Origin: Hymenobacter convexus | GTDB lineage: Bacteria > Bacteroidota > Bacteroidia > Cytophagales > Hymenobacteraceae | Length of the DNA stretch: 64,000 nt | Assembly: GCF_030580955.1 (NCBI RefSeq) | Contig: NZ_JAUQON010000008.1 | Span: 62,001-126,000 of the forward strand | Reading direction: 5' to 3' | Shown: one piece after another, positions 1,272 through 55,356 of the stretch | How the letters are laid out: every line of letters begins with the position of its first letter | How positions within the stretch are numbered: position 1 is the stretch's first letter | Translations under genes and position numbers: made by a program | The notes under the pieces: generated by a model | Databases searched by the model: none | What the model was told of the DNA's origin: nothing | The model's input: the letters and a program-made list of their open reading frames with translations, nothing else

Positions 1272-1949
1272 ATGAAAATTCTCCTCATTGAAGACGAAGC
1301 GGCTCTGCGCACTGCCCTGATGGGCTCGTTGAAGCAAGCCGGCTACCTAGTGGAAGCCGCCGCCGACTGCGCCCAGGCTTACGAAAAAATCGGCCTCTAC
1401 CAATACGACTGCGTGTTGCTCGACCTGACCCTGCCCGACGGGTCCGGCCTCGACCTGCTCCGCGCCCTCAAGGCGCAGAAATCGCCGGCCGGCGTGCTCA
1501 TCATCACGGCCCGCGACGCCCTCACCGACAAAATCACCGGCCTCGACCTCGGGGCCGACGACTACCTCATCAAGCCTTTCCACCTCTCCGAGCTCAATGC
1601 CCGGCTCCGGGCCATCATCCGCCGCCGCCAGTTCCAGGGCCAGCAGCAAATCATGTTCCGCGACCTGGTGGTGCTGCCCGAGCTGGCCGAAGTGCAGGTG
1701 CGCGGCGAGGCCCTCACCCTCACCAAGAAGGAGTACGACCTGCTGCTCTACCTCCTCGCCAACCCCGGCCGCGTCCTCACCAAGGAAGCCATTGCCGAGC
1801 ACCTCTGCGGCGACGCCGTGGATGCCGCCGACTCGTTCGACTTCATCTACACCCACCTCAAAAACCTGCGCAAAAAGCTTCAGGAAAAGGGCGCCGACAA
1901 CTACATCCGCACCATGTACGGCGTGGGCTACAAGCTGAGCCACGAGTAA
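1272..1949 (+). CDS. OmpR-family response regulator
   Basis: A 225-residue two-domain regulator. The receiver domain shows the acidic pair in IEDE (residues 7-9), the phospho-acceptor Asp51 in LLDLTLPDG and the conserved Lys101 in LIKPF. A winged-helix DNA-binding domain fills residues ~130-225 (LTLTKKEYDLLLYLL and YGVGYKL are typical). I start at 1272 because MKILLIEDE is the canonical start of this family; an upstream in-frame ATG at 1224 would add 16 unrelated residues. The cognate kinase follows 90 bp downstream, and a TolC-type gene is divergent. Confidence 0.95.
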   Translation: MKILLIEDEAALRTALMGSLKQAGYLVEAAADCAQAYEKIGLYQYDCVLLDLTLPDGSGLDLLRALKAQKSPAGVLIITARDALTDKITGLDLGADDYLIKPFHLSELNARLRAIIRRRQFQGQQQIMFRDLVVLPELAEVQVRGEALTLTKKEYDLLLYLLANPGRVLTKEAIAEHLCGDAVDAADSFDFIYTHLKNLRKKLQEKGADNYIRTMYGVGYKLSHE

Positions 1950-48987: not shown

Positions 48988-50952
48988 ATGCGACTTACGC
49001 GCTACGCCGCCCCGTTTTTCTGCTTCTTCATCACCCTCAACGCCCTGGCCCAGACGCCTGCCGACAGCGCCCGCAGCCTGCGCGAAGTCACCGTTTTTGC
49101 CTCGCGCCTCACCCAGCCTGGCAACCAGACCGGCCACGCCGTCACGGTTATTTCCGGCGCCAGTGTGGCGCGCTACCCCGTCAATTCCATCGATGACTTG
49201 CTGCGATGCCTGCCGGCACTGGAGATTCAGAGCCGCGGCAGCTTCGGGGCGCAGGCCGACGTGAGCATGCGTGGCAGCACCTTCAACCAAGTGCTTTTCC
49301 TGCTCGATGGCATGCGGCTGAACGACCCGCTCACGGGCCATTTCGGCGCCTATATGCCCATTACGCCCAGCGAGATTGAGCAGATTGAAATCATTCGCGG
49401 CGCCGGCGCGGCCCTCTACGGCCCCGATGCTGTGGGCGGCGTCATCAATATCGTCACCAAAACCTTCGCCGCCACCGAGCGCCGCCACGAGGCCGAGCTC
49501 ACCAGTACTACATTGCGCGGCGAGTACAACTTGTGGCACACCAACACCAGCGGCTTTCTGGCGGCCGATAAGCTGCGGGTGGGCGGCGGCGTTTTGTTGA
49601 ATAAAACGGATGGCCAGCTGCGTGACTACCCCAGCACCCAGCGCAGCGATGTCGACCTGAAAACCTACTCCCTCTCGGCGGCTTATGAACTGATGCCCAA
49701 GCTCAGCGCTGCTGCCCGCGTCAGCCTCGACCGGCGCGACTACAGCGCCCAGTATTTCTACACCACCGCCATCGGCGACCTCGCGCGCGAAACCACCAAC
49801 AAGAACTGGTACCAGGGCCAGCTGCGCTACCAGCACAACGAGCGCGCCCGCACCGAAGCCCAGGTTTCCAGCAGCCGCGGCACCGATTACTACCTCTACA
49901 CGCCTACGTCGGTGGCCAGCGACCACCTCACGCACTACACCAACGTGCTGCTCAGCCACCAGCAGCAGTTTTCGGACAAGCTGCGCGCCACCCTCGGCGG
50001 GCAGGCCGACCACCGTTCGGTGGTGAGCAACGACCGGGGCAACCACGACCAGTGGCACTACGCCGCGTTCGGCGTGGTGGCCCTCACGCCCACGGCGGGC
50101 CTGGCCCTCACCGGCGGCCTGCGCCTCGACCACGACCAGGCCTACGGTACCGAAGTGGTTCCCCAACTCAACGTGAGCCAGCAAATAGGAGAGGAGCTGA
50201 CCGTGCGCGGGGCCATTGGCCGGGCCATTCGCGCCCCCGATTTTACGGAGCGTTACAACTCGAACGGCCGACCCGGCACCGTGCCCAGCGGCTTCAACGT
50301 GGGCAACGCTGGCTTGCAGGCCGAGCGCACGATGAACTACGAAGCGGGCGCCGACTACCGCCCGCTGCCCGGCCTCATTGTCAAAGCCACCGGATTTCTG
50401 CGCAAGGGCAACAACCAGATTGACTACGTGCCCACGCCCGGCGCCCGGGTCATCGAAGCCAGCGGCCTCACCAACCTCAACCCCGCCGCTACCTACCGCT
50501 ACGCCCAAAACCTGTTCGACGTGACCACCCGCGGCCTGGAAACGGAGCTGGTGTACCAACGCCAATTTTCACCCTCCACGCGCTTCGACGGTAGCGTGGG
50601 CTACCTGCTGGTGAAGGTGAGTAACGCCGACAACATCGCCTCGCAGTACCTCGCCAACATTGCCCGGCAGGTGGTGTCGGGTACCGTCAGCTTTACCGCC
50701 AAGCGCGTGAACGGCAGCCTCAGCGGCCTCTGGAAGCAGCGCGACGCCAGCGCCGCCGCGGCCATCAACCGCGTGAATAATGCGGAGTATACCGTGTTCA
50801 ACGCCCGCCTGGAAGTGGCCCTGCTGCCCCAGCGGCTCTGGCTCACGGGGCAGGTGCAGAACCTGTTCAACGAGAAATACTCCGACCTCTTGGGCGCCCA
50901 GATGCCCACCCGCTGGCTGATGGGCGGCCTGCGGCTGGCGCTGCGCAAGTAG
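48988..50952 (+). CDS. TonB-dependent outer-membrane receptor (BtuB-like)
   Basis: 654 residues. Signal peptide (FFCFFITLNALAQ), a plug domain (VTVISGASVARYPVNSIDDL, then QVLFLLDGMRLNDP and YGPDAVGGVINIVTKTF) and a barrel ending in arginine-rich LRLALRK. Length and plug resemble BtuB-type vitamin or siderophore receptors rather than SusC. No cobalamin riboswitch or ABC genes are nearby, so the ligand is open. A terminator follows; its loop contains the -33 TTTG of the next promoter. Confidence 0.88.
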   Translation: MRLTRYAAPFFCFFITLNALAQTPADSARSLREVTVFASRLTQPGNQTGHAVTVISGASVARYPVNSIDDLLRCLPALEIQSRGSFGAQADVSMRGSTFNQVLFLLDGMRLNDPLTGHFGAYMPITPSEIEQIEIIRGAGAALYGPDAVGGVINIVTKTFAATERRHEAELTSTTLRGEYNLWHTNTSGFLAADKLRVGGGVLLNKTDGQLRDYPSTQRSDVDLKTYSLSAAYELMPKLSAAARVSLDRRDYSAQYFYTTAIGDLARETTNKNWYQGQLRYQHNERARTEAQVSSSRGTDYYLYTPTSVASDHLTHYTNVLLSHQQQFSDKLRATLGGQADHRSVVSNDRGNHDQWHYAAFGVVALTPTAGLALTGGLRLDHDQAYGTEVVPQLNVSQQIGEELTVRGAIGRAIRAPDFTERYNSNGRPGTVPSGFNVGNAGLQAERTMNYEAGADYRPLPGLIVKATGFLRKGNNQIDYVPTPGARVIEASGLTNLNPAATYRYAQNLFDVTTRGLETELVYQRQFSPSTRFDGSVGYLLVKVSNADNIASQYLANIARQVVSGTVSFTAKRVNGSLSGLWKQRDASAAAAINRVNNAEYTVFNARLEVALLPQRLWLTGQVQNLFNEKYSDLLGAQMPTRWLMGGLRLALRK

Positions 50953-50967
50953 GCCATTTTCACCAGC

Positions 50968-51001
50968 AAGGCCCCTCGGTTTGAACAAATCGAGGGGCCT
51001 T
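50968..51001 (+). terminator. Terminator of the TonB receptor gene
   Basis: Perfect 11-bp stem AAGGCCCCTCG / CGAGGGGCCTT with a 12-base loop. The T run is weak (TTGCTGTATCTTTG). Its loop holds the TTTG at 50980-50983. Confidence 0.85.
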
Positions 51002-51013
51002 GCTGTATCTTTG
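50980..51013 (+). promoter_or_regulatory. Bacteroidota promoter for the SAM-riboswitch leader
   Basis: -33 TTTG (50980-50983) and -7 TATCTTTG (51006-51013) are 22 bases apart. This fits the TTTG-N19-22-TAnnTTTG plan. Transcription would start near 51020, about 20 bases before the riboswitch P1 stem. Confidence 0.65.
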
Positions 51014-51036: not shown

Positions 51037-51145
51037 AGGATTGTTTTTATACAGAGACGCTGAGAGACAGGCTCTACGACGCGTCGGCAACCATTTAGGA
51101 TACTCCTGAAACGGTGCCAATTCCTGACCATATAAAAACAAGTTG
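51037..51145 (+). promoter_or_regulatory. SAM-I (S-box) riboswitch
   Basis: P1 is an 11-bp perfect stem (TTGTTTTTATA at 51041-51051 with TATAAAAACAA at 51131-51141). P2 pairs GACGC (51056-51060) with GCGTC (51081-51085), with an inner GAG/CTC. The conserved GGCAACC follows at 51086-51092, P3 is AGGA/TCCT, and the GGTGCCAATTCC core at 51113-51124 is closed by GGT/ACC. This matches the Bacteroidota form of the SAM-I aptamer. Binding of S-adenosylmethionine should switch off the genes downstream. Confidence 0.9.
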
Positions 51146-51147
51146 CC

Positions 51148-51255
51148 GTGGAAGCCTCCAACAACCAACCCGTATTTCCTGCTGCTTTCAATGCCCGCCT
51201 CGCGCCTATGCACCGGGCTGGCATGGCGTGTTGTTGCTGTTGTTGTCTGGCTTAA
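51148..51255 (+). CDS. Poly-cysteine leader peptide (putative cysteine-sensing uORF)
   Basis: A short ORF that starts 6 bases after the riboswitch. From GTG 51148 it has 35 codons; from the in-frame ATG at 51208 it encodes MHRAGMACCCCCCLA and then TAA. Six consecutive Cys codons are TGT TGT TGC TGT TGT TGT, although nearby genes (for example preA) use TGC almost exclusively. Low cysteine supply would stall ribosomes on this run, the logic of cysteine-responsive attenuation known in mycobacteria. Too short for standard gene callers. An alternative is a small RiPP-like peptide made by the ATP-grasp gene; I consider it less likely. Confidence 0.6.
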   Translation: MEASNNQPVFPAAFNARLAPMHRAGMACCCCCCLA

Positions 51256-51582: not shown

Positions 51583-52572
51583 ATGTCCGCTGTCCAAAAG
51601 CCCATTGGCATCTACTTCGAGCACCCCGAATGGTTCAAGCCGCTCTTCGCCGAGCTAGACCGCCGCGGCTTGCCCTACGAAAAAATTGACGCCGCCCATC
51701 ACCTCTTCAACCCCTCCGAAAAGGAAAGCCGTTACAGCCTGGTGGTCAACCGCATGAGCTCTTCGGCCTACCTGCGCGGGCACGGGCAGGGCATCTTCCA
51801 CACGGCTGGCTACGCCACGCACCTGGAGCGCATCGGCACGCGCATCATCAACGGCTCGGCGGCCACGGCCATTGAAACGAACAAGGCCCGGCAACTGTCG
51901 CTGTTTGAGTCGCTGGGGCTGAAATACCCGGCCTCGCGCGTCATCAACCACGCCTCGCGGGCGGTGGATGCGGCGCGGGAGTTGCGCTTTCCCATCGTGG
52001 TGAAGGTGAACATCGGCGGCAGTGGCGCGGGCATCATCCGCTTCGATACCATCGAGGGGCTGCAGGCGGCCGTGGACGCCAACCAGATTGACCTCGGCAT
52101 CGACCAAACGGCGCTGGTGCAGGAGTATGTGACGCCCCGCGGCGGCAACATCCACCGCGTCGAAACGCTGGACGGCAAGTTCCTCTACGCCATGAAGGTG
52201 TTCACCACCGGCGAGAGTTTCAACCTGTGCCCGGCCGAAATCTGCCAGATTCCCGAAGAGCAGTCGGCCGAGTTTTGCCTGACGGAAGCGCCGAAAAAAG
52301 GCATTCAGGTGGAGGCCTTCACGCCGCCGGCCGAGGTCGTGGCCGCCGTGGAGCGCATCGTGGCCGCCGCCAAAATTGACGTCGGCGGCATCGAATACCT
52401 CATCGACGACCGCACCGGCGACGTGCTGTTCTACGACATCAACGCCCTGTCCAACTTCGTGGCCGATGCCGTGAACGTGGTCGGCTTCGACCCTTACGCC
52501 CGCTTCGTGGACTATCTGGAAACGCAGCTGCCGGCTGCGGTGGCCGCGCCGGTAGAACTGGCAACGGCTTAA
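51583..52572 (+). CDS. ATP-grasp ligase (RimK-like)
   Basis: 329 residues. The ATP-grasp core is visible: a lysine strand and glycine loop (PIVVKVNIGGSGAGIIRF), TALVQEYVTPRGGNIHRVE, and the metal end LFYDINALSNF with a DIN in place of the more usual ExN. The family forms amide or thioester bonds with ATP. Substrate unknown. It is the first full-length gene behind the SAM riboswitch and poly-Cys leader, with a sulfonate-type monooxygenase next. A role in handling a sulfur-containing peptide or amino acid is an inference. Confidence 0.85.
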   Translation: MSAVQKPIGIYFEHPEWFKPLFAELDRRGLPYEKIDAAHHLFNPSEKESRYSLVVNRMSSSAYLRGHGQGIFHTAGYATHLERIGTRIINGSAATAIETNKARQLSLFESLGLKYPASRVINHASRAVDAARELRFPIVVKVNIGGSGAGIIRFDTIEGLQAAVDANQIDLGIDQTALVQEYVTPRGGNIHRVETLDGKFLYAMKVFTTGESFNLCPAEICQIPEEQSAEFCLTEAPKKGIQVEAFTPPAEVVAAVERIVAAAKIDVGGIEYLIDDRTGDVLFYDINALSNFVADAVNVVGFDPYARFVDYLETQLPAAVAAPVELATA

Positions 52573-52597
52573 CCGTCCTAATCACCATAATAAACCG

Positions 52598-52692
52598 GTC
52601 ATGCTGAGCGCAGCCGAAGCATCTCTACCGCTTCGTTGCAGCGAAGTTGATTACTCACCAAGTAGAGATGCTTCGGCTGCGCTCAGCATGAC
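52598..52692. repeat. Intergenic palindrome, family D
   Basis: Arms GTCATGCTGAGCGCAGCCGA and complement; loop includes CTTCGTTGCA, shared with the copy at 11802. It fills the gap between the ATP-grasp and monooxygenase genes. Confidence 0.9.
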
Positions 52693-52714
52693 GTTCTTTT
52701 AAATCGCCAAGGCA

Positions 52715-53734
52715 ATGAAATTCGGATATTGGATGCCCATTTTTGGGGGCTGGCTGCGCAACGTCGAAGACGAGCAGATGCCCACCGACTGGAGCTACGT
52801 GAAGCAGCTGGCGCAGCGCAGCGAGGGCTGGGGCTACGACCTCACGCTCATCGCCGAACTGTACTTAAACGACATCAAGGGCACCGAGGCGCCGTCGCTG
52901 GAAGCGTGGAGCACGGCTGCCGCCTTGGCCGCCGTGACCGAGCAGCTGGAAATAATGGTGGCCGTGCGCCCCACCTTCCACAACCCCGCGCTGCTGGCCA
53001 AGCAAGCCGCCAATATTGATTTGATTGCGCCCGGCCGGCTGTCGCTCAACGTGGTATCGAGCTGGTGGCGCGACGAAGCCACCAAGTACGGCCTGCACTT
53101 CGAGCAGCACGACGACCGGTACGCCCGCACCCGCGAGTGGCTCGACGTAGTGACCAACGTGTGGAAGCAGGACCATTTCAGCTACGACGGCAAGTACTAC
53201 CAGGTGGCCGACAACATCCTGCAGCCCAAGCCCGCCAAAGCCCCGTTCCTCTACGCCGGCGGCGAGTCGGAGGCGGCCAAAGACCTCATTTCGACCCAGT
53301 GCGACGGCTACGTGATGCACGGCGACTCGCCGGAGCTCATCGGCGCGCGCATTGCCGACATGCGCCGTCGCCGCGAGCAGAAAGGCCTGCCGCCGATGAA
53401 GTTCGGCGTGGCCGGCTACTCCATTGTGCGCAACACCGAGCAAGAGGTGAAGAAGGAGCTGGACCGCATCACCAACGTGCAGGCCTCCGCTTCGGGCTAC
53501 GGCAACTACCAGCAGTGGCTGGCCGGCACCCAGCTGGAGCAGCAAGTGTCGCTGCACGACTACTCCGTATCGAACCGCGGGCTGCGCACGGGTCTCACGG
53601 GCACGCCTGCCCAGCTGCAGGACCGTATTGGCGAGTTCGAGAATGTGGGAGTGGACTTCTTCCTGCTGCAAGCCAGTCCGCAACTGGAAGAAATGGAGCG
53701 GTTTTCGGAGTCGGTTATTCAGGTGCTGGCGTAG
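52715..53734 (+). CDS. Flavin-dependent monooxygenase, dimethylsulfone/alkanesulfonate type (LLM class)
   Basis: 339 residues, bacterial luciferase-like barrel. Segments LSLNVVSSWWRDEATKYG, EHDDRYARTREWLDVV (seen as EQHDDRYARTREW) and FLYAGGESEAAKDL resemble SfnG and SsuD, which use FMNH2 and oxygen to cleave C-S bonds of dimethylsulfone or alkanesulfonates and release sulfite. This fits a sulfur-starvation locus under SAM control. A partner flavin reductase is not seen in the window. Substrate specificity within the family is not certain. Confidence 0.85.
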   Translation: MKFGYWMPIFGGWLRNVEDEQMPTDWSYVKQLAQRSEGWGYDLTLIAELYLNDIKGTEAPSLEAWSTAAALAAVTEQLEIMVAVRPTFHNPALLAKQAANIDLIAPGRLSLNVVSSWWRDEATKYGLHFEQHDDRYARTREWLDVVTNVWKQDHFSYDGKYYQVADNILQPKPAKAPFLYAGGESEAAKDLISTQCDGYVMHGDSPELIGARIADMRRRREQKGLPPMKFGVAGYSIVRNTEQEVKKELDRITNVQASASGYGNYQQWLAGTQLEQQVSLHDYSVSNRGLRTGLTGTPAQLQDRIGEFENVGVDFFLLQASPQLEEMERFSESVIQVLA

Positions 53735-53901: not shown

Positions 53902-55356
53902 ATGCTTAAAAAATCACTCGAACTGCTTCGTGCCGAAGCGGCCGAAACGGGGGCGAACACCCTCAAACGCAGCCTCAACGGCGTCAGCCTGATTGCTATC
54001 GGCATTGGGGTTATCATCGGGGCGGGCCTGTTCTCGCTCACCGGCATTGCGGCGGCCAACAACGCGGGGCCGGCCGTGACGCTCTCCTTTGTGGTGGCGG
54101 CCGTGGGCTGCGCCTTCTCGGCGCTATGCTACGCCGAGTTTGCGGCGCTGGTGCCCGTGTCGGGCTCGGCTTATACGTATTCCTACGCCACTATGGGCGA
54201 GCTGTTTGCCTGGATTATCGGCTGGGATTTGGTGCTGGAGTACTCGGTGGGCGCGGCCACGGTGGCCATCAGCTGGTCGCAGTATCTCATCAAGTTTCTG
54301 GGAAAATACGGGCTGCACATCCCGGCTCAATTGGTGATGTCGCCATTCGAAAGCGCGACGCTGGCCGACGGCTCTACCGTGAGCGGTTTCGTGAACGTGC
54401 CGGCCATGCTCATCGTGCTGGCCATTACGGCCATTGTCACGCGCGGTACCAAAGGGTCGGCGTGGTTCAATGCGCTGGTGGTGGCCTTGAAGGTGGCGGT
54501 GGTGCTGGTGTTCATTGCGCTGGGCTGGCAGTACATCGACCCCGCCAACTACCAACCCTACATTCCGGCCAACACCGGCACGTTTGGCGAGTTCGGCCTG
54601 AGCGGGATTTTGCGCGGGGCGGGCGTTATTTTCTTCGTCTTTATCGGCTTCGACATCGTGGCAACCATGGCGCAGGAAACCAAGAATCCGCAGCGCAACA
54701 TGCCCGTGGGCATCCTCGGCTCGCTGGCGGTTTGCACGGTCTTGTTCGTGCTGTTTGGGCACGTGCTGACGGGTTTGGCCAATTATACCGAGTTCAAAAA
54801 CAGCGCGGCACCGGTGGCCATTGCCATTGAGAAAACGCCTTATGCCTGGCTTTCTTCGGCCGTGATTCTGGCCATTCTGGTGGGCTACACGTCGGTTATC
54901 CTGGTCGATTTGCTGGGGCAGTCGCGGGTATTTTTCTCCATGTCGAAGGACGGGCTGCTGCCGCCGGTGTTCTCGCGCATTCACGCCAAATACAACACGC
55001 CGTTTCAGTCCAGCCTGCTGCTGGGCTTGTTCATTGCGCTATTTGCAGGCTTCGTGCCCATCTCGGTGGTGGGCGAGATGACCAGCATCGGCACGCTGCT
55101 GGCCTTCGTGATGGTGTGTCTGGGCGTGCTCATCATGCGCCGCACCAACCCCGACGCCCCCCGCTCGTTCCGTACGCCGTGGGTGCCGGTGGTGCCCATT
55201 CTGGGCATTGTGGTGTGCCTCGTGATGATGGCCTCGCTGCCCTGGGAAACGTGGCTGCGCCTCGTGGTGTGGCTGGCGCTGGGCCTGCTGATTTATTTTG
55301 GCTACGGCCGCAGGCACAGCAAGCTGCGGCTGGCGCAGGAGGGAGTTAAAAGTTAG
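53902..55356 (+). CDS. APC-family amino-acid permease
   Basis: 484 residues and about 12 transmembrane helices. The substrate-binding start of TM1 is SLIAIGIGVIIGAGLFSLTG. Closest in look to the cationic/YfnA-type amino-acid transporters (AGWDLVLEYSVGAATVAISW seen as IIGWDLVLEY). It imports or exchanges amino acids at the inner membrane. Third gene of the sulfur-linked run, so a sulfur amino acid is conceivable. I start at 53902; the frame is open far upstream through the palindrome and an antiparallel reading of the previous gene, which is not coding. Confidence 0.9.
   Translation: MLKKSLELLRAEAAETGANTLKRSLNGVSLIAIGIGVIIGAGLFSLTGIAAANNAGPAVTLSFVVAAVGCAFSALCYAEFAALVPVSGSAYTYSYATMGELFAWIIGWDLVLEYSVGAATVAISWSQYLIKFLGKYGLHIPAQLVMSPFESATLADGSTVSGFVNVPAMLIVLAITAIVTRGTKGSAWFNALVVALKVAVVLVFIALGWQYIDPANYQPYIPANTGTFGEFGLSGILRGAGVIFFVFIGFDIVATMAQETKNPQRNMPVGILGSLAVCTVLFVLFGHVLTGLANYTEFKNSAAPVAIAIEKTPYAWLSSAVILAILVGYTSVILVDLLGQSRVFFSMSKDGLLPPVFSRIHAKYNTPFQSSLLLGLFIALFAGFVPISVVGEMTSIGTLLAFVMVCLGVLIMRRTNPDAPRSFRTPWVPVVPILGIVVCLVMMASLPWETWLRLVVWLALGLLIYFGYGRRHSKLRLAQEGVKS

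Follow-up and report, generated by a model that had tools for sequence, protein, structure and literature searches.

The window (the whole stretch of DNA that was analyzed, 64,000 nucleotides of contig NZ_JAUQON010000008.1 of Hymenobacter convexus) contains a single Rfam match, a SAM-I riboswitch (RF00162) at positions 51044 to 51138 of the plus strand, which covers the full model (1 to 108) with a score of 70.3 bits (cut-off, 44.4; E = 2e-14). The aptamer resembles the SAM-I (S-box) family in both sequence and structure and, with a covariance score above the gathering cut-off, meets the requirement for membership; SAM binding and switching are only inferred. Its P1 helix consists of 11 bp between TTGTTTTTATA (51041 to 51051) and TATAAAAACAA (51131 to 51141) and is separated by 6 nucleotides (GTTGCC) from the start codon of a short open reading frame (ORF) whose peptide ends in ACCCCCCLA (Table 1). 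The complete aptamer with an 11-bp P1 and the short ORF 6 bases behind it, with this C terminus, had both been claimed in a preliminary description made from the sequence alone, and both were recovered, by the Rfam match with location of the P1 arms and by coordinates and translation, respectively. The same description held that five of the six leader Cys codons are TGT, a codon avoided nearby, and TGT was indeed rare in the vicinity of the leader (1 TGT versus 7 TGC in five window genes). A gene for a TonB-dependent receptor, nearest to the vitamin B12 receptor family, lies immediately upstream of the SAM leader (48988 to 50952). The promoter match is an inference from the Bacteroidota-type consensus.

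Table 1. Features of the SAM-I and Cys leader region and of the genes behind it
Feature	Position	Strand	Basis
Intrinsic terminator with 19-bp stem behind the upstream TonB receptor gene, just 5' of the leader promoter	50964..51005	+	Terminator search
Bacteroidota-type promoter match: TTTG (50980-50983), 22 nt, TATCTTTG (51006-51013)	50980..51013	+	Sequence; inferred
SAM-I riboswitch aptamer, including 11-bp P1	51041..51141	+	Rfam match and sequence
Leader ORF: GTG start at 51148, 35 codons, stop TAA at 51253-51255, peptide MEASNNQPVFPAAFNARLAPMHRAGMACCCCCCLA	51148..51255	+	Sequence
G-poor body of leader ORF (18 G, 30 C); putative site of Rho loading	51151..51228	+	Base counts; Rho role inferred
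Run of six Cys codons, TGT TGT TGC TGT TGT TGT (five TGT, one TGC)	51229..51246	+	Sequence
First gene under the leader: 329-aa protein of RimK-like ATP-grasp type	51583..52572	+	Sequence comparison
Second gene: luciferase-like (LLM) monooxygenase, nearest SfnG/SsuD (sulfur scavenging)	52715..53734	+	Sequence comparison
Third gene: amino-acid permease	53902..55356	+	Sequence comparison

The window genome carries five SAM-I riboswitches, three of which are followed by a Cys leader, namely, those of the ATP-grasp/monooxygenase operon, cysH (leader peptide METSNNARLHAFTTFALSQACCCMPCQPVCTTTAAGCWM), and metY (leader peptide MENLAESAFFDPNAPAALRAAVSGFAVLAPCGRNQAPRSLRMRMCCCRPCCC). The remaining two, at metB/gamma-lyase-type and metH loci, were without a Cys leader. 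Gene names at these five loci were assigned from motifs in translations, with no family search per gene. SAM-I was present in all 61 genomes of the genus Hymenobacter and in 186 of 241 genomes of the order that were searched, from which loci were chosen irrespective of Cys content (L001 to L172). Among Hymenobacter sulfur-assimilation and cysteine loci, 40 had a Cys leader and 1 did not, versus 0 with and 23 without at Met-cycle loci (hom, metB type, and metH; Fisher P = 1.6e-16). The leader was found at all sampled loci of cysH (20/20), of the ATP-grasp gene (8/8), and of homologues of the permease, which in other Hymenobacter have a SAM-plus-Cys leader of their own (10/10), and at 2 of 3 metY loci; the third, without a leader, is an additional aptamer lying farther upstream at the same metY locus (L060). 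In other Cytophagales, the ratio of loci with to loci without a Cys leader was 11:6 for sulfur genes and 1:27 for Met-cycle genes; the leader occurred at 11 of 17 metY loci and at one metX locus and at none of the metH, metK, or metB-type loci. These counts ignore shared descent, so that loci are not independent, and the genus loci were partly selected by short aptamer length, which is itself correlated with the sulfur class. Within these bounds, the Cys leader is confined to sulfur-assimilation genes and tracks gene function, both in Hymenobacter and in related Cytophagales. The preliminary description would have been refuted had homologous SAM riboswitches lacked a conserved Cys run behind them; the comparison strongly bore the description out. 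Some metY loci (L092, L097, and L101) kept a leader ORF with few or no Cys codons, which counts against a general role of the Cys run. At L060 and L081, a single metY is preceded by two SAM-I-like aptamer cores, which lie on one strand at a distance of about 0.6 and 1.15 kb, respectively. The operon of the ATP-grasp and SfnG/SsuD-like genes (51583 to 53734) is inferred to be under sulfur control in Hymenobacter, as is the ATP-grasp gene in Pontibacter (L235, L264, and L280), and its role is perhaps in sulfur scavenging or concerns a thiol compound.

A scan of 84,980 genomes for the pattern GCAACC-N(8-38)-GGTGCYAA-N(120-150)-four Cys codons returned at least 120 matching stretches, with a handful of chance matches expected in 257 Gb by our own estimate. 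Among the matches listed, about 113 had an in-frame ORF starting within about 60 nucleotides of the aptamer, and the named organisms behind these were all Bacteroidota (Hymenobacter, Pontibacter, Mucilaginibacter, Lewinella, Saprospiraceae, Cyclobacteriaceae, Flavobacteriales, and others). Genes behind the listed leaders include metY, metX, cysH, and genes for sulfite/nitrite reductase-like proteins, the ATP-grasp protein, and the permease. These leaders, at least about 113 in this one scan and among the matches listed, confirm in other Bacteroidota genomes that the Cys run is conserved. A near-identical strict pattern was found in 16 of 395 genomes of the class, which is a lower bound given its strictness, and its reversed control in none. 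TGY repeats are common in the high-GC window genome (104 + 95 matches to TGYTGYTGYTGY versus 35 + 46 for the control), which speaks for the chance placement of a random ORF with a TGT/TGC repeat behind a SAM riboswitch; such a coincidence is nonetheless refuted by recurrence at orthologous and paralogous loci and throughout the phylum, by the tracking of gene function, and by the empty reversed control, and we consider its likelihood negligible. Recurrence of the SAM-I and Cys leader pairing across the phylum Bacteroidota, beyond chance, is confirmed. At sampled metY loci elsewhere in the phylum, outside the class, SAM-I was present and no Cys leader was found. Seven listed matches outside Bacteroidota (Paenibacillus, Sedimentibacter, a Thermofilales metagenome-assembled genome, Chitinilyticum, Halomicronema, Leptolyngbyaceae, and Kerfeldbacteria) had no leader at the right place and were taken as chance. 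In one family of the same class, which includes a Mucilaginibacter assembly, SAM-I-like aptamers precede peroxiredoxin-like and cysteine desulfurase-like genes (L159, L160, L163, L164, and L166). In another Bacteroidota family, a Cys-only leader was seen (L338, about 1400 to 1550, plus strand), in which the poly-Cys leader MYNKRNTFNFYKSRMHAMMRMCCCCCCC lies 52 nucleotides ahead of a gene resembling PhyH-type dioxygenases and Rfam shows no SAM riboswitch; this stand-alone leader suggests that the Cys module is separable.

The properties of the ORF were compared over 165 unique leaders, which had been selected for at least 4 Cys codons in the tail, so that Cys counts are conditional on that choice. 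They averaged 37 codons, started with ATG or GTG, and in 125 of 165 cases had Cys as the last codon before the stop. Between orthologues, identity was 0.42 to 0.48 in the ORF body (cross-group background, 0.35), 0.73 to 0.93 in the Cys tails, and 0.78 to 0.90 in the genes. The ratio of TGT to TGC at 41 Hymenobacter loci was 179:60 in leaders versus 12:161 in the genes behind them, and in a Mucilaginibacter alignment the invariant columns of the Cys run were codon positions 1 and 2. The ORF thereby satisfies what is required of a Cys-sensing leader: it is short, it lies before pathway genes and has Cys codons in a run toward its end, and this run is conserved in a peptide whose remainder drifts. 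It is probably a cysteine-sensing leader; its translation and its response to Cys-tRNA are inferred in the absence of experimental data. These same properties bear on control by SAM only, of a small Cys-rich protein with a function of its own in metal or thiol binding, in which the Cys codons would be no sensor. A P1 placed directly before the ORF start, as in a translational riboswitch, is compatible with such control, and Cys- and Met-rich tails could bind metal, but the remainder of the peptide is not conserved between orthologues, rare TGT codons are preferred, the Cys run usually adjoins the stop, and the leader precedes sulfur-assimilation genes and not metH, hom, or metB-type genes in Hymenobacter, all of which make this explanation improbable. 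Met accounted for 14 to 16% of the non-Cys residues in the tails, from which we infer that the leader may read the methionine supply as well. In the Cys tails of L177 to L292, Met codons were enriched among the Cys codons (e.g., CICMCCCCC).

The distance from the 3' end of P1 to the start codon had a median of 6 nucleotides (quartiles, 4 to 8) in 164 leaders, and an ORF start within 2 to 12 nucleotides of P1 was found at 116 of 164 Cys loci versus 18 of 114 non-Cys SAM-I loci, several of the 18 being Cys-poor metY leaders. Bacteroidota initiate translation without a strong Shine-Dalgarno sequence, on A-rich, unstructured RNA, and a SAM-bound P1 should by inference therefore block the leader. 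Judged from this geometry, we think it rather probable that P1 gates translation of the leader. At one locus (L118, 1660 to 1690, plus strand), the SAM-I aptamer and the Cys leader before metY are separated by an intrinsic terminator; SAM would act there by termination, with the leader second, which supports two separate inputs.

How the leader is coupled to the genes was approached through base composition, terminators, and RNA structure. C exceeded G in the leader body of 163 of 164 Cys leaders, versus 61:45 in non-Cys SAM leaders. At four-fold sites of leader bodies, G made up 14% against 38% in Hymenobacter and 10% against 23% in the others, and C was not raised at these sites outside Hymenobacter. 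Depletion of G in the body is a constraint at the nucleotide level, fitting either the loading of Rho on untranslated leader RNA or merely unstructured RNA; as an alternative to Rho, G poverty may do no more than keep the ribosome site unstructured. The window stretch from the leader to the first gene was not C-rich (C 90, G 102), a point against the proposed explanation. Coupling through Rho, a step that is inferred, is a serious possibility, albeit one against which we lean slightly. Classical attenuation, by an intrinsic terminator with a hairpin and U tract between leader and gene, is very improbable: a hairpin with a T-rich tail occurred at few loci (L037, L067, L178, and L201), and the terminator search found none in the window between 51255 and 51583 and only 9 behind 164 leaders versus 4.5 expected from shuffles, so that terminators are not general and the definition of such an attenuator is not met.

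With the same SAM and Cys inputs, the leader may instead be coupled to the genes not through Rho but through RNA structure, whether by alternative hairpins behind the leader stop, by translational coupling, or by an effect on RNA stability. From 0 to 90 nucleotides behind the stop there was a moderate structure signal (z averaging about −0.9 to −1.0), which was absent at 60 to 120 nucleotides. In Mucilaginibacter, a conserved hairpin directly after the stop had 94.7% of its cells paired and a modest covariation signal, with 5 of 500 shuffles scoring as high; both observations suggest a structural element outside the Rho model. In several single-sequence folds, the Cys codons can also pair with bases immediately past the stop. 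Overall, however, pairing of the Cys run with neighboring RNA was near shuffle level (mean z, −0.4 to +0.15), minimum-free-energy structures varied among loci, and two-sided changes were seen in only two of the six pairs of the Mucilaginibacter hairpin, and we regard structural coupling as possible, if doubtful. Some matches between the Cys run and the ORF body were visible by eye (AACAAC with GTTGTT), but such pairing did not exceed dinucleotide shuffles and was rejected. Inspection by eye also pointed to a second Mucilaginibacter hairpin, which RNAalifold did not recover, alignment gaps being the probable cause.

The preliminary description had read the locus as a two-signal leader for SAM and cysteine, and conservation and function tracking support this as the best reading, with sensing inferred; that the leader takes these two inputs is very likely. 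The restriction to sulfur-assimilation genes, the spread over the phylum, the placement of the start codon directly after P1, and the lack of a general intrinsic terminator go beyond that description. The anatomy, the recurrence, and the tracking of gene function are observations; sensing, switching, and coupling are inferences. In the arrangement that we propose, the SAM-I aptamer would sense SAM, as expected from knowledge of the family and the full Rfam match, and P1 would cover the A-rich stretch just 5' of the leader start, so that SAM binding would block leader translation, as the geometry implies. At low SAM the leader would be translated, and when Cys-tRNA is scarce ribosomes would stall in the Cys run beside the stop, a step inferred from the Cys run itself and from known poly-Cys leaders. 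Stalled ribosomes would keep transcription or expression of the sulfur-assimilation genes on, the most likely way being that they protect the G-poor leader and the RNA after it from Rho. Expression would be shut off at high SAM, when the leader is not translated, or with enough Cys, when it is soon cleared, the net logic being ON when SAM and cysteine are both short. This serial two-input explanation is, as a whole, likely, without data on expression, ribosome profiling, or termination. The fuller proposal, a phylum-wide RNA AND gate in which SAM-bound P1 controls Cys-leader translation and sulfur assimilation is on only when SAM and cysteine (and possibly methionine as well) are both short, with Rho as the effector, is offered tentatively, with doubt outweighing confidence.

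An S-box leader usually targets a terminator or the start of the main gene; the Bacteroidota pairing differs in having a leader ORF as the next downstream element. The mgtA and corA leaders of Salmonella combine leader ORFs with Rho and sense Mg2+ or proline. Tandem riboswitch logic gates combine two aptamers (Sherlock 2018, as cited in PMC8632094). The SAM-plus-Cys leader resembles both in integrating two signals in one leader, but neither pairs SAM with a Cys leader peptide. Poly-Cys leaders of Actinobacteria have Cys runs near the stop and no conserved terminator, and Rho has been proposed for them (PMC1262725). They precede cys operons of Mycobacterium and Propionibacterium and cbs of Bifidobacterium (PMC1262725; Canestrari 2020, cited in PMC9031893), and leaderless poly-Cys ORFs of mycobacteria have been shown to be Cys responsive in M. 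smegmatis, as reported in PMC9031893. The Bacteroidota leader is like these in being a short ORF with a Cys run near the stop, before cysteine or sulfur genes, without a conserved terminator; it differs in phylum and in having its start codon just behind the aptamer P1, whereas the actinobacterial leaders have no SAM riboswitch in front and the mycobacterial ORFs are leaderless. In Rhodobacterales, the uORFC-8-2 motif of cysS uses an upstream ORF with tandem Cys codons as an attenuation sensor (PMC8632094); unlike the Bacteroidota leader, it comes with an intrinsic terminator and without a riboswitch, has two Cys codons, and concerns a different gene and phylum. According to a 2010 survey of attenuators, Proteobacteria and Actinobacteria were the only groups with demonstrated leader peptide systems until the survey's own Firmicutes case (PMC2965389). 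Neither a SAM riboswitch nor a Bacteroidota setting appears in the poly-Cys systems of PMC1262725, PMC9031893, and PMC8632094, and a literature search, which did not cover most subscription journals, yielded no description of a SAM riboswitch with a leader peptide or cysteine in Bacteroidetes. The expectation that poly-Cys leaders are known from Actinobacteria and that their tandem with a SAM riboswitch in Bacteroidota is new thus held in the literature searched. Poly-Cys leaders as such are already known, and the form gated by a SAM riboswitch is, within that literature, a new one; its two-signal architecture is well supported, and its coupling is inferred.

The pairing of SAM-I and a Cys leader, which gene callers miss, explains two classes among the sampled SAM-I riboswitches of Bacteroidota, those of sulfur assimilation with a Cys leader and those of the methyl cycle without one. 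As a rule, it predicts sulfur functions for uncharacterized genes, such as the ATP-grasp gene of the window. If our reading is true, it would extend amino-acid-specific leader peptides to Bacteroidota, from which none has been reported in the literature searched, and would provide an example from nature of a riboswitch gating a ribosome-based amino acid sensor, in series on one RNA.
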